Assembly: GCF_900104355.1 (NCBI RefSeq)
Contig: NZ_FNIY01000006.1
Span: 1 to 64,000, forward strand
Length of the DNA: 64,000 nucleotides
DNA from: Phyllobacterium sp. OV277
GTDB taxonomy: Bacteria; Pseudomonadota; Alphaproteobacteria; Rhizobiales; Rhizobiaceae
Reading direction: 5' to 3'
The notes under the pieces are model-generated. The model saw only the letters and a list, made by a program, of their open reading frames with translations. It was not told where the DNA came from and did no database searches. Of this stretch, positions 39,316 through 45,572 are shown piece by piece. Positions within the stretch are counted from its first letter, which is position 1; each line of letters opens with the position of its first letter. A program made the position numbers and the translations under genes.

Positions 39316-39540
39316 ATGCGCATTGCATTACCCATGGCTATCTTGTCCCTAATGGTCTTGACGGCCTGCAATACAAGCACAGCCACAAGCACAGGCACGA
39401 GCAAGAGTTCAAAACCGCAAGCTTCTGCCATGTCGCCGGCAAAGGACACGCATTTTGTTCCACCACCCAAATCTTTGACCCAGAAGGCCACGCCGTCGAA
39501 GGTTCCGGAAACGCCCGGTGCACAGAACGCCGTTCAGTAA
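39316..39540 (+). CDS. Small lipoprotein, Thr/Ser/Pro-rich
   Basis: A 74-residue protein with a lipoprotein signal peptide (MRIALPMAILSLMVLTAC; acylated Cys18 in the lipobox LTAC). The mature part is low-complexity, rich in Thr, Ser, Pro and Lys, and is probably disordered and anchored in the envelope. AAGGA lies ten bases before the ATG. It is unique in the window; no function is known. Confidence 0.72.
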   Translation: MRIALPMAILSLMVLTACNTSTATSTGTSKSSKPQASAMSPAKDTHFVPPPKSLTQKATPSKVPETPGAQNAVQ

Positions 39541-39659: not shown

Positions 39660-39785
39660 AAACAACAAAACCCACCGCGGGAGGAGGTGCGGTGGGTTTC
39701 GTTGGTTATGGAAGGTCTTCTGGGAGGAGAAGAGACCGACCGTTTCGACAGAGCCGGGAGGAGGTGACGCTGTCGAAAATTCCTG
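39660..39785 (-). ncRNA. Candidate trans-acting small RNA with three CCUCCUCCC-type loops (alpha-r14/NfeR1-like)
   Basis: On the minus strand three hairpins follow each other, each showing a CU-rich anti-Shine-Dalgarno loop. Hairpin 1: stem TTTCGACAG/CTGTCGAAA (39743-39778), loop with CACCTCCTCCC. Hairpin 2: arms TCTTCT and AGAAGA inside a GGTCT/AGACC base (39714-39737), loop CCTCCC. Hairpin 3: stem AAACCCACCGC/GCGGTGGGTTT (39668-39699), loop ACCTCCTCCC, followed by TTTTGTTGTTT, a rho-independent terminator. The size (about 125 bases) and triple loop match the alphaproteobacterial alpha-r14 (NfeR1) family, which pairs with ribosome sites of transporter mRNAs with Hfq. The 5' end is estimated, not shown. 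AbcR-type is a less likely alternative. Confidence 0.75.
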
Positions 39786-39823
39786 ATCTAAGAATAACTC
39801 CATTAGTCTGATTTAATATAGAT

Positions 39824-39863
39824 AATATTGCATAGCAGCATTGCGTCTGGTGCAATGCAGCAT
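39824..39863 (-). promoter_or_regulatory. Candidate operator upstream of the small RNA, shared with the DUF1127 gene
   Basis: TTGCATAGCAGCA (39828-39840) is identical to the sequence upstream of the DUF1127 gene. It continues into an inverted repeat GCATTGC-N7-GCAATGC (39838-39858). It lies about 40-75 bases upstream of the estimated small-RNA 5' end, a usual activator position. Confidence 0.55.
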
Positions 39864-39999: not shown

Positions 40000-40356
40000 A
40001 TGCGTAAATTATCTGCGTCAGTCCTTATAACGGCAATTGTGGCGTCTGCGTTATCAATTCAGCCCGCCGGAGCGTTCAGCATGAAGGGCCAAATGGCTGC
40101 TCCATCGGAGAACAATGACATCAGCAACAAAAAATTTGAGAAAGCTGCGCTGCTGGAAGCACAAGCCTATATTTGTGGAACGGATAGCGATGCTAGTCTG
40201 CAGGTTATGCGGGCCGGGATGGCGGAAACAGGTTTGCCGGAAGATATTGCCGTCGAAGTGGTTTCAGACCTCGCATCCGGCCTAATCGACAAGGCTGTGA
40301 AGTCTGGTTCAAAAGAAATCTGCGGAAAACCACGCGTGCAAATCTCGCGACTTTGA
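40000..40356 (+). CDS. Exported protein of unknown function
   Basis: A 118-residue protein with a Sec signal peptide (MRKLSASVLITAIVASALSI, cleavage after GAFS-type residues near 25). The mature domain is small and helical with two cysteines (AYICGTDS, KEICGKPR) that could form one disulfide. GCCAAAGAG precedes the ATG at 40000. It is located downstream of the small-RNA region with no operon partner. No family is recognised. Confidence 0.65.
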   Translation: MRKLSASVLITAIVASALSIQPAGAFSMKGQMAAPSENNDISNKKFEKAALLEAQAYICGTDSDASLQVMRAGMAETGLPEDIAVEVVSDLASGLIDKAVKSGSKEICGKPRVQISRL

Positions 40357-41018: not shown

Positions 41019-42038
41019 ATGACCCCGCTCTCAGTTCTCGACCTTTCGCCGGTTCCCGTTGGCAGCACGCCCGCGCAATCACTCCGTAACTCGCTGGATT
41101 TGGCACAGAATGCCGAACGGCTCGGCTACAATCGACTGTGGCTCGCCGAGCATCACAATATGCGTGGCATCGCGAGTGCCGCCACGGCTGTTGTTATTGC
41201 GCATGTTGCCGCTGGCACATCGACCATTCGCCTTGGTGCGGGTGGTATCATGCTTCCCAATCACGCGCCGCTGATGGTGGCCGAAGCTTTTGGTACCCTT
41301 GCTGCCTTGCATCCAGGCCGGATTGATCTTGGCGTTGGCCGCGCTCCCGGTACGGACCAGATCACCGCCCATGCCTTGCGCCGTAATCTTGAACAGGACA
41401 TCAATGGCTTTCCGCAGGATGTCGTTGAACTCCTGAGCTATTTCCGCGAACCGGAACCGGGCCAGAAGGTGCAGGCTGTACCGGGGGCCGGGCTTAACGT
41501 CCCCGTGTGGATACTCGGTTCAAGTCTGTTTGGTGCGCAACTCGCGGCGGCGCTGGGATTGCCTTACGCCTTTGCCTCGCATTTTGCCCCGGCCGAAATG
41601 GAAAGGGCAGTCGAGATTTACCGTGCAAGGTTCGAACCATCCGAGTATCTGGCAAAACCCTATGTGATGTTGGGACTTAACGTCTTCGCAGCCGATACGG
41701 ATGCCCAAGCGAATTTGCTGAAAAGTTCGCAGCAGCAAGCCTTTGTCAATCTGCGGACAGGCAATCCGGGGCCCTTGCCTGCACCGCTCGAAGGCTATGA
41801 AGAGACACTTGATCTCCACGCGCGGGCGATCTTACGGCAATCATTGTCCTGCACGGTCGCGGGTTCACCTTCTACTGTCAAGGCAGGCGTCGAAGAGTTC
41901 ATCCAGCGCACGGGTGCCGATGAGATCATGGTGACAGGCCATATATTCGATCACAAGGCGCGCATTCGCTCGTACGAAATTCTCGCAGATGCGATGATTG
42001 CTGATAGTCAGGCAAAAGCCACGAGAGTGAGCGCCTAG
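41019..42038 (+). CDS. LLM-class flavin-dependent oxidoreductase (luciferase-like)
   Basis: A 339-residue TIM-barrel flavoprotein of the bacterial luciferase family, subgroup with YhbW-like proteins. Signatures are [29 protein letters not shown] at the start, [60 protein letters not shown]. The family uses FMNH2 or F420; this subgroup is mostly of unknown substrate. It converges on ureG, the stop codons sharing CTAG at 42035-42038. Confidence 0.9.
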
Positions 42039-42658
42039 GCGGCCTCTCTGAGGCCACCGGCTGCTTCGATAAATGCGATCACTTCATCAAGGCCATTGCG
42101 TCGCAACATATCGGTGAAAACGTAAGGCTTTGCGCCGCGTTGAACCTTTGTGTCCGCCTCCATGACATCGAGATCGGCACCCACATAGGGTGCCAGATCC
42201 TTCTTGTTGATGATCAAAAGATCCGAACGGGTAATACCGGGGCCGCCTTTTCTCGGGATCTTTTCACCTTGGCAGACCGAAATGACATAGATGGTCAGAT
42301 CAGCTAGATCGGGTGAGAAAGTTGCCGCCAGATTATCACCGCCGGATTCAATGAAAACAATGTCGAGATCGGGGTGGCGCTTGTTCATCTCGGCTATTGC
42401 CTGCAGATTGATCGTCGCGTCCTCGCGGATGGCCGTGTGCGGACAGCCGCCTGTTTCCACACCCATGATCCGGTCCTCGGGCAGTGCCTGCAATCGGCTG
42501 AGGATCAGCGCATCCTCCTTGGTGTAGATGTCATTGGTTATAACGGCGATCGAATAGCGGTCGCGCATCGCCTTGCAGAGCATTTCGGTGACAGTGGTTT
42601 TGCCGGAACCAACAGGCCCGCCAATCCCGACGCGAAGTGGTCCATTTTGCGAGATCAT
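42035..42658 (-). CDS. ureG: Urease accessory GTPase UreG
   Basis: A 207-residue SIMIBI GTPase that drives nickel delivery to the urease active site. The P-loop GGPVGSGKT (about residues 13-21), the switch [19 protein letters not shown] with the Cys-Pro-His metal site, and [22 protein letters not shown] are all typical. It overlaps ureF by four bases and ends the ureDAB-C-EFG order. Confidence 0.97.
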
Positions 42659-43859: not shown

Positions 43860-45572
43860 TCAGAACAGGAAGTAGCGCTGCGCCATGGGCAGCACTGTTG
43901 CCGGTTCGCATGTCAGAAGTTCGCCATCCGCGCGCACTTCATAGGTTTCCGGGTCAACTTCCACATGCGGCGTGGCATCGTTGTGGATCATGGATGCCTT
44001 AGAAATGCCGCTGCGGGTGTTTTCGACGCCGATCATCCGCTTGTCTGTGCCCAAAGACTGGCGAAGGCCCGCTTCAATTGAGGCCTTGCTGACAAAAACA
44101 ACTGACGAATTGCTGACGTTCTTGCCAAAGGTGCCGAACATGGGGCGATAGTGCACCGGCTGCGGCGTCGGGATCGACGCGTTGGGATCACCCATCGGCG
44201 CGGCGGCGATCGATCCGCCCAGTAACACCATATCGGGTTTGACGCCGAAGAAGGCCGGATTCCACATTACCAGATCGGCGCGTTTGCCCACTTCAATCGA
44301 ACCGATATGTCTTGAAACACCCTGCGCAATCGCCGGATTGATCGTATATTTGGCGATATAACGTTTCACGCGGAAATTATCATTGTCGCCGGTTTCCTGC
44401 GGCAGGCTTCCGCGTTGACGTTTCATCTTGTCGGCGGTCTGCCATGTGCGGATCAGAACTTCGCCGACACGGCCCATGGCCTGACTATCCGACGAGATAA
44501 TCGAAAAGGCACCGATGTCGTGCAAAATGTCTTCCGCGGCAATCGTCTCCTTGCGGATACGGCTTTCGGCAAAGGCCACATCTTCCGGGATCGATGATGA
44601 CAAATGATGACAAACCATCAGCATGTCCAAATGTTCGGCAATGGTATTCTTCGTGTATGGCCGTGTCGGATTGGTTGATGATGGAATGACATTCGGCAGG
44701 CCGCAAATCTTGATAATATCAGGCGCGTGACCGCCGCCCGCACCTTCCGTATGAAAAGCGTGGATCGTGCGGCCTTTGAATGCCGCAACGGTATCTTCAA
44801 CAAATCCGCTTTCGTTCAGTGTATCCGTATGGATCATCACCTGCACGTCGAACTGATCAGCCACGGTGAGGCAATTATCGATAGCAGCGGGGGTCGTCCC
44901 CCAGTCCTCATGCAGCTTCAATGAACAGGCGCCGCCAAGGATCATCTCTTCCAGTGCCTTGGGTTGTGATGTGTTGCCTTTACCTGACAGGCCGAGATTC
45001 ATCGGAATGGAATCAAAAGCCTGAATCATCCGCCCCAGATGCCAAGGGCCGGGCGTACAGGTTGTTGCCAGCGTCCCATGCGCCGGACCGGTCCCGCCGC
45101 CAAACATAGTCGTGACACCTGACATCAAGGCTTCATCGATCTGCTGTGGGCAAATAAAGTGGATATGCGCGTCCATGCCTCCAGCGGTGAGAATTTTTCC
45201 CTCGCTGGCAATGATTTCCGTGCCCGGACCGATGATGATGGTAACACCCGGCTGAGTGTCTGGATTACCCGCCTTGCCGATGGCGGCGATCATTCCATCC
45301 TTGAGCCCGACATCCGCCTTGTAGATGCCTGTGTGATCGACAATCAGAGCATTGGTGATAACGGTATCAACAGCACCATCGGCCCGTGCGACCTGACTCT
45401 GGCCCATACCGTCGCGAATAACCTTGCCGCCGCCGAATTTCACCTCTTCGCCATAGACGGTGAGATCTTTCTCCACCTCGATAAATAGCTCCGTATCGGC
45501 AAGGCGGACCTTGTCACCCGTGGTTGGGCCAAACATGCGGGCATAGGCGGAGCGGGTGATTTTAGCGGGCAT
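43860..45572 (-). CDS. ureC: Urease alpha subunit (catalytic)
   Basis: A 570-residue amidohydrolase subunit holding the two-nickel site. Metal ligands are visible: His136 and His138 in [10 protein letters not shown], the carbamylated lysine near 219 in SLKLHEDWG, and the Asp in [12 protein letters not shown]; the mobile flap with the catalytic His and Cys is [22 protein letters not shown]. Every residue needed for activity appears present. It is unusual that the gene is separated from ureB by a 669-base gap with an opposite-strand gene. Confidence 0.98.

Follow-up and report, generated by a model that had tools for sequence, protein, structure and literature searches.

A conserved alpha-r14 small RNA gene of Phyllobacterium with an LsrB-type upstream box and predicted transport-gene targets

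The alpha-r14 family of small RNAs (sRNAs) was founded on NfeR1 of Sinorhizobium meliloti, also called Smr14C2 or SmelC397 (PMC10746234, PMC7143759, PMC8844928; published findings are cited, here and below, from extracts of the papers). As published, the same anti-Shine-Dalgarno (anti-SD) motif, CCUCCUCCC, is present in all three loops of alpha-r14 RNAs (PMC10746234). Through these loop motifs, NfeR1 lowers ntrB expression (PMC10746234). Two transporter binding-protein mRNAs are validated targets, and the NfeR1 promoter is activated by LsrB (PMC10746234, PMC8844928). Earlier papers have described the family and its loops and have recorded it in Phyllobacteriaceae (PMC7143759, PMC3927594). Note that the genus name Phyllobacterium was not seen in the sRNA literature among the matches listed. 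AbcR1 and AbcR2 belong to a separate Rfam family (alpha-r15, RF02345). In the extract of PMC8844928, AbcR is described as Hfq-bound, while NfeR1 is not.

Here, we describe an alpha-r14 gene in a 64-kb stretch of Phyllobacterium DNA, which we refer to as the window. The RNA resembles NfeR1, whose Hfq-independent transcript has 115-123 nt, in its length, its three hairpins, its anti-SD loops, an LsrB-type box at -72, and the presence of several copies per genome. Targets of the transporter type, validated in S. meliloti and predicted for the window copy, are a further likeness. Conversely, RNAs of the window type have no NtrC site at -116 to -101, the core promoter differs, ntrB is no evident target, and the middle loop of the window copy falls short of the full nonamer. 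Hence, the label NfeR1, used in an earlier note made from the DNA letters, holds for the LsrB box at -72, but not for the NtrC site, core promoter or ntrB pairing. Because these three traits of NfeR1 were not found, we do not claim strict NfeR1 identity. The result suggests that control by NtrC and targeting of ntrB do not extend to the alpha-r14 family as a whole. There is also a likeness to AbcR1 and AbcR2, since an AbcR-like RNA of the same genome (L139) contains CTCCTCCTCCC and has the same box at -72. CcsR, or 'cuckoo', RNAs are associated with DUF1127 genes (CIN1 loci), and their loops carry an anti-SD-type motif. Two sister copies in our genome are likewise found just behind DUF1127 ORFs, whereas the window copy is solitary and has an upstream element of its own. 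No DUF1127 ORF is directly upstream of it; the ORF there is divergent, encodes 118 aa, and has no Pfam match at E 0.01.

The RNA gene and its conservation

Features of the locus are listed in Table 1. Position 39782 is +1 by assumption, with the 5' end inferred from the ar14 model. A cmscan search matched RF02344 (ar14) with 76.6 bits, against a gathering cut-off of 58.8 (E 4.8e-12), and the alignment spans all 123 model positions. The predicted fold has an energy of -51.6 kcal/mol, compared with -25.2 (sd 3.1) for shuffled sequences, and 0 of 200 shuffles were equally stable (z -8.6). Three hairpins are predicted, of which the third is the terminator, as in the alpha-r14 architecture of three variable stems. 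Hairpin 3 ends in the T-rich tail TTTTGTTGTTT (39660-39670). The sequence CCTCCTCCC occurs twice in the window, both times inside the RNA gene, where 0.21 occurrences are expected. Loops 1 and 3 contain the exact CCUCCUCCC, and loop 2 matches it at 8 of 9 positions (UCUCCUCCC). The number of exact nonamer loops varies within the alpha-r14 family. Among 73 copies from the genus, 27 have three, 45 have two and one has a single nonamer; all 20 copies of the window type have two. We conclude that the RNA is firmly a member of ar14 (alpha-r14).

Table 1. Features of the RNA locus; positions relative to +1 are in brackets
Feature	Coordinates	Strand	Basis
sRNA gene, member of Rfam ar14 (alpha-r14)	39663..39782	minus	cmscan RF02344 and fold (z -8.6)
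Hairpin 1, anti-SD loop CCUCCUCCC at 39756-39764	39743..39778	minus	fold and motif count
Hairpin 2, loop CCUCCC at 39722-39727, extended UCUCCUCCC	39710..39741	minus	fold
Hairpin 3 (39663-39704), loop CCUCCUCCC at 39679-39687, with T-rich tail	39660..39704	minus	intrinsic terminator
Conserved upstream block (-80 to -31)	39813..39862	minus	alignment of 20 orthologs
LsrB-type box, TGCA-N6-GCAA (-72 to -59) overlapping GCAA-N3-TG-N3-T (-62 to -50)	39832..39854	minus	motif search
Putative -10 element TATTCT (-14 to -9), weak	39791..39796	minus	tentatively read from sequence

These data confirm the observation, made in the earlier note at 39660 to 39785, of a probable small RNA on the minus strand, and those coordinates are correct to within about 3 nt. 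The covariance-model check suggested at that time returned ar14 above the gathering score, as the assignment to alpha-r14 predicted. Similarly, the fold reproduces three successive hairpins with exposed anti-SD loops (CCUCCUCCC, CCUCCC and CCUCCUCCC), and the last, described as an intrinsic terminator, has both the stem and the T-rich tail. The remark that ORF-based annotation would miss the gene is fair, but an Rfam scan detects the RNA at once.

The gene sits between a 74-aa ORF (39316-39540, plus strand), which a 91-aa frame overlaps, and the divergent 118-aa ORF (40000-40356, plus strand). Neither flanking ORF had a Pfam match above cut-off. Urease genes lie beyond the RNA locus; a CobW/HypB/UreG-domain ORF is at 42035-42658, and the ORF at 43860-45572 is one that we take to be UreC. 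An Rfam 5'ureB sRNA match (45131-45419, plus strand, 120.4 bits) is antisense to this UreC-like ORF. The match is probably due to conservation of the urease coding sequence and not to a genuine antisense RNA.

Our genome has five ar14 copies, all above the cut-off, and two of the sister copies outscore the window copy. At E <= 0.001, a threshold that admits a few matches below the cut-off, each of 20 genus genomes (our own included) has between 4 and 7 ar14 matches. The total is 102, of which 92 were examined (73 grouped first and 19 fetched later). At the order level, with stricter filters, matches were found in 63 of 199 genomes, and those of 29 genomes reach the cut-off. The window-type copy is found in all 20 genus genomes, once in each. 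In the GTDB collection, 16 stretches contain its exact terminator sequence, 14 of them from Phyllobacterium and 2 assigned to Rhizobiales only. In genomes of the same taxonomic family (L127, L128 and L129), two or three ar14 units lie in tandem behind what appears, by eye, to be one DUF1127-type frame.

Aligned bins of the RNA are 0.91-0.99 identical across the 20 orthologs. For covariation, these provide 19 distinct rows and 721 pair cells, which were compared with 500 shuffles. Standard pairs fill 99.7% of the cells. Three pairs, one per helix, are changed on both sides (7 of 721 cells). Briefly, A-U is replaced by G-C in hairpin 1 (1 of 19 rows), C-G by U-A in hairpin 2 (5 of 19 rows), and C-G by G-C in hairpin 3 (1 of 19 rows). 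None of the 500 shuffles reached the standard-pair share, the count of both-sided pairs and the count of both-sided cells seen in the orthologs. The number of pair types, for these 19 rows, was not in excess (415 of 500 shuffles were as high), and sliding the pairing by +1 column still yields one pair changed on both sides. With a mean identity of 95%, the rows come from close relatives, and the covariation is therefore modest. Hence, the search for compensatory changes, by which the three stems might have been refuted, instead found one both-sided pair in each.

The upstream element and a candidate activator

Conservation extends upstream of the RNA. Between -80 and -31, mean column identity is 0.88-0.97 per 10-base bin, compared with 0.53-0.77 at -130 to -81. 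There is a dip at -30 to -21 (0.76), and isolated high bins are found further up, towards the divergent ORF (0.92 at -160 to -151 and 0.82 at -230 to -221). The conserved block contains two overlapping LsrB-type motifs, with definitions from PMC10746234 and PMC8844928. In NfeR1 homologs, the LsrB motif is TGCA-N6-GCAT at -72 to -60 (PMC10746234); at AbcR1, it is GCAT-N3-TG-N3-T at -61 to -49 (PMC8844928). All 20 window-type copies, which share ancestry and are not independent, have TGCA-N6-GCA starting at exactly -72, the placement of the NfeR1 box, and GCAW-N3-TG-N3-T starting at -62. The strict T (GCAT) is found in 10 of them; the window copy differs by one letter, reading GCAA.

On both strands of the window together, the combined motif has a single occurrence, upstream of the RNA. 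By itself, TGCA-N6-GCA is neither depleted nor enriched relative to chance (16 observed, 22.7 expected). None of the 72 other genus ar14 copies examined (0 of 53 and 0 of 19, from 92 of the 102 matches) has the combined motif, and one of the 53 has TGCA-N6-GCA alone. Among 49 order-level ar14 loci, GCAW-N3-TG-N3-T is present in 13, TGCA-N6-GCA in 10, and both in 4. The distances vary and, hence, placement at exactly -72 is a finding for the genus.

The putative -10 element is in, or next to, a bin with identity of 0.94 (-20 to -11). In the sequence upstream of 39782, no clear -35 element was seen before it, and a promoter scan of the window gave no sigma-70-like match at the RNA start. The NfeR1 core promoter, CTTAGAC-N17-CTATAT, has no exact match in the 20 copies; the best placements have 4-8 mismatches of 13, with 7 in the window. 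None of the 20 orthologs has the NtrC site, TGC-N11-GCA, at -116 to -101. In 8 of 20 the pattern is found at -63 only, within the LsrB region. Note that, in the extract of PMC10746234, the NtrC site of NfeR1 is reported from Sinorhizobium and Rhizobium only. As a separate matter, we rejected a sigma-70-like sequence, TCAACA-N17-GATAAT at 39903-39875, as the promoter, since the stretch is poorly conserved (bins of 0.77, 0.77 and 0.70).

There are two ar15 (AbcR-like) RNAs in our genome, L139 and L140. The former (C15:897587-897701) has the strict LsrB-type motif at -72 and -62, the same positions as in the window copy. Neither LsrB-type motif was found at L140. Between the L139 RNA and trxB is a LysR-type gene (C15:899175-900071) encoding 298 aa with HTH_1 and LysR_substrate domains. 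It is about 1.5 kb from the RNA, with one ORF between. In published work, AbcR1/2 adjoin lsrB (PMC8844928). Because of the protein type, and a neighbourhood resembling AbcR1/2-lsrB, the LysR-type gene beside trxB most likely encodes an LsrB-like protein, the putative activator of the window copy.

Predicted target sites

Sites complementary to the loops were sought before start codons. The pattern GGAGGAGG-N3-9-ATG is found at 22 places in the genome, compared with 6 for the reversed pattern, and AAAGGAGA-N4-8-ATG is found at 36, compared with 1. Ordinary SD sequences account for part of the GGAGGAGG excess. Before ATG, the full nonamer GGGAGGAGG (3 places, 2 reversed) was too infrequent for use, and TAAGGAGG was dropped as a control site (5 places, 5 reversed, one identical to a target site). 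Target genes were defined as ORFs of at least 100 aa with an in-frame stop within 50 codons upstream. Note that ten targets were picked by eye after the list had been viewed; the rule was scripted later, for controls, and selects the same ten. These come from the 21 of 22 GGAGGAGG places assessed (L147, near a contig end, was left out), and the other 11 fail. One failing place, L162, is an internal ATG in an apparent ABC permease.

By Pfam, 7 of the 10 are transport genes (MFS, ABC-3 permease, SBP_bac_1, EII-GUT, SBP_bac_5, AA_permease and SBP_bac_3). The remaining three are AHSA1, QueF-like and AraC-type. For the AAAGGAGA controls, 30 of 36 places were fetched and 13 meet the rule. The transport share is 7 of 10 for targets and 0 of 13 for controls, the latter being the only baseline for transport genes in this genome (Fisher p 0.0005). 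No Pfam match was obtained for three of the 13 controls. One of these three, L178, is possibly a membrane carrier, by eye; if it is counted as a transporter, the control share rises to 1 of 13, against 7 of 10 for targets (p 0.006). Strong SD sequences before transporter genes may also be common for other reasons.

For the ten targets, predicted duplexes with loops 1 and 3 have energies of -16.7 to -23.2 kcal/mol, and controls reach -14.9, a comparison that is partly circular because the sites were chosen by complementarity. With loop 3, 400 random 60-mers have a median of -9.3, with the best 5% at or below -15.6. The start region of our ntrB, for which three possible starts were tried, has no good site (best duplex -10.6, against the background median of -9.3). 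Some target sites are retained in relatives. Close orthologs of the polyol-type binding protein (at least 82% identity) are present in 6 of 19 genomes, including our own, and GGAGGAGG is kept in 5 of the 6, L212 being the exception. Those of the amino-acid permease, at the same identity, are in 4 of 19 genomes, and 3 of the 4 keep the site. A further 19 binding-protein relatives are more distant, at about 60% identity; GGGAGGA precedes the printed start in 6 of them, and the others are printed with another start.

Action in trans on several ribosome binding sites, transporters included, as the earlier note had it, agrees with the NfeR1 literature and with these predicted targets. The targets are not assignable to the window copy, because sister copies and the AbcR-like L139 carry similar loops.

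Working model, alternatives and sister copies

We infer that an LsrB-like activator of the LysR type binds at about -72 to -50, upstream of the RNA gene, and so would drive transcription of an RNA of about 120 nt ending at the third hairpin. In the cell, many mRNAs would pair through their purine-rich SD sequences (GGAGGAGG or GGGAGGA) with the exposed loops (CCUCCUCCC and CCUCCC), and this pairing would block ribosome binding. Transport genes would be the preferred targets and, hence, the RNA would trim nutrient uptake under the signal of the activator. The working model, of LsrB-type activation and ribosome-site masking at transport genes, is well supported by computation. In our judgement, the RNA is likely to be a trans-acting, NfeR1-like alpha-r14 sRNA that is LsrB-activated and masks the ribosome sites of transporter mRNAs. 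For the field, this is an extension of a known family and no surprise. In 20 genus genomes, one specific ar14 paralog is now linked to an LsrB-type box, which it shares with one AbcR-like RNA. The analysis also provides a short list of predicted targets: polyol-type, peptide and amino-acid binding proteins, a sorbitol PTS and an amino-acid permease.

The window copy could be silent, given that only one of six S. meliloti alpha-r14 copies was reliably detected by northern blot (PMC7143759). Two of our own copies also score higher, and the core promoter is weak by consensus. However, all 20 genomes conserve both the RNA and its upstream block, in contrast to the drift of the nearest flanks, and one pair in each stem is changed on both sides. 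Furthermore, the window type is alone, among 92 genus copies examined, in having the combined LsrB-type box. We thus consider it improbable that this is a silent or weakly expressed duplicate, with another of the five copies doing the work. Instead, the RNA might serve mainly as a general decoy with no chosen targets: by imitating the anti-SD end of the 16S rRNA, its loops would damp initiation on many mRNAs. The CCUCC core within the loops, and the several copies per genome, fit such a role. Against it, transport genes are over-represented at the 8-base complementary sites of our genome (7 of 10, compared with 0 of 13 controls), although the lower duplex energies of the sites add little, since they follow from site selection. 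We give the decoy the same small chance as the silent duplicate.

A bare bidirectional terminator or repeat element, with no sRNA function, would account for the position between ORFs, the terminator end, and a terminator-like site called on the plus strand. It would leave the three hairpins, family match, conserved loops and conserved upstream block unexplained, and is very improbable. Even less credible is a small protein gene on either strand, for which ORFs of 89 aa (minus) and 65 aa (plus) overlap the RNA. Among the 20 orthologs, the plus-strand frame is open for anything from 41 to 104 codons. On the RNA strand, a start was recognised in 14 of 20, giving 31-146 aa, with a pattern that missed the window's own ATG and 5 others. 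There are 1-base gaps within the RNA in 2 of 20 orthologs, and changes preserve base pairing. Neither frame looks conserved as protein. Accordingly, we rejected a small protein on the length spread and the 1-base gaps, in keeping with the earlier view that no protein-coding potential explains the stretch.

Sister copies of the window RNA have other neighbours. Two of them (L001, 1215-1621, and L002, 1501-1790) are about 10 nt behind DUF1127 ORFs (PF06568 in each case), a linkage known as the CIN1 locus (PMC10253847). Another (L005, 1025-1616), on contig C10 at a distance of some 51 kb from the window copy, is about 20 nt behind a phasin ORF (PF09361). Of 20 further loci examined for this link, 14 have a full-length phasin-like ORF upstream, 1 has a partial ORF (cut) and 5 have none. 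Phasin-linked ar14 is thus found in 16 of 20 genus genomes (15 and our own); three or more of these RNAs fall short of the ar14 cut-off. A limited literature search found no phasin-ar14 link; the matches were, by title and abstract, on other subjects. A tentative possibility is that the five ar14 genes form one multi-input device, with different triggers releasing similar anti-SD loops: LsrB for the window copy, another upstream element for L004, and linkage to DUF1127 or phasin ORFs for the others. If so, oxidative, stress or carbon-storage signals would all act to repress one shared set of transporter mRNAs, and the phasin-linked copy would connect uptake with polyester storage.

The L004 copy (1400-1500) represents a second stand-alone ar14 type. 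Its upstream element, TTTGCATA-N5-TATGCA, differs from that of the window copy and was seen, by eye, in most copies of the L004 type.
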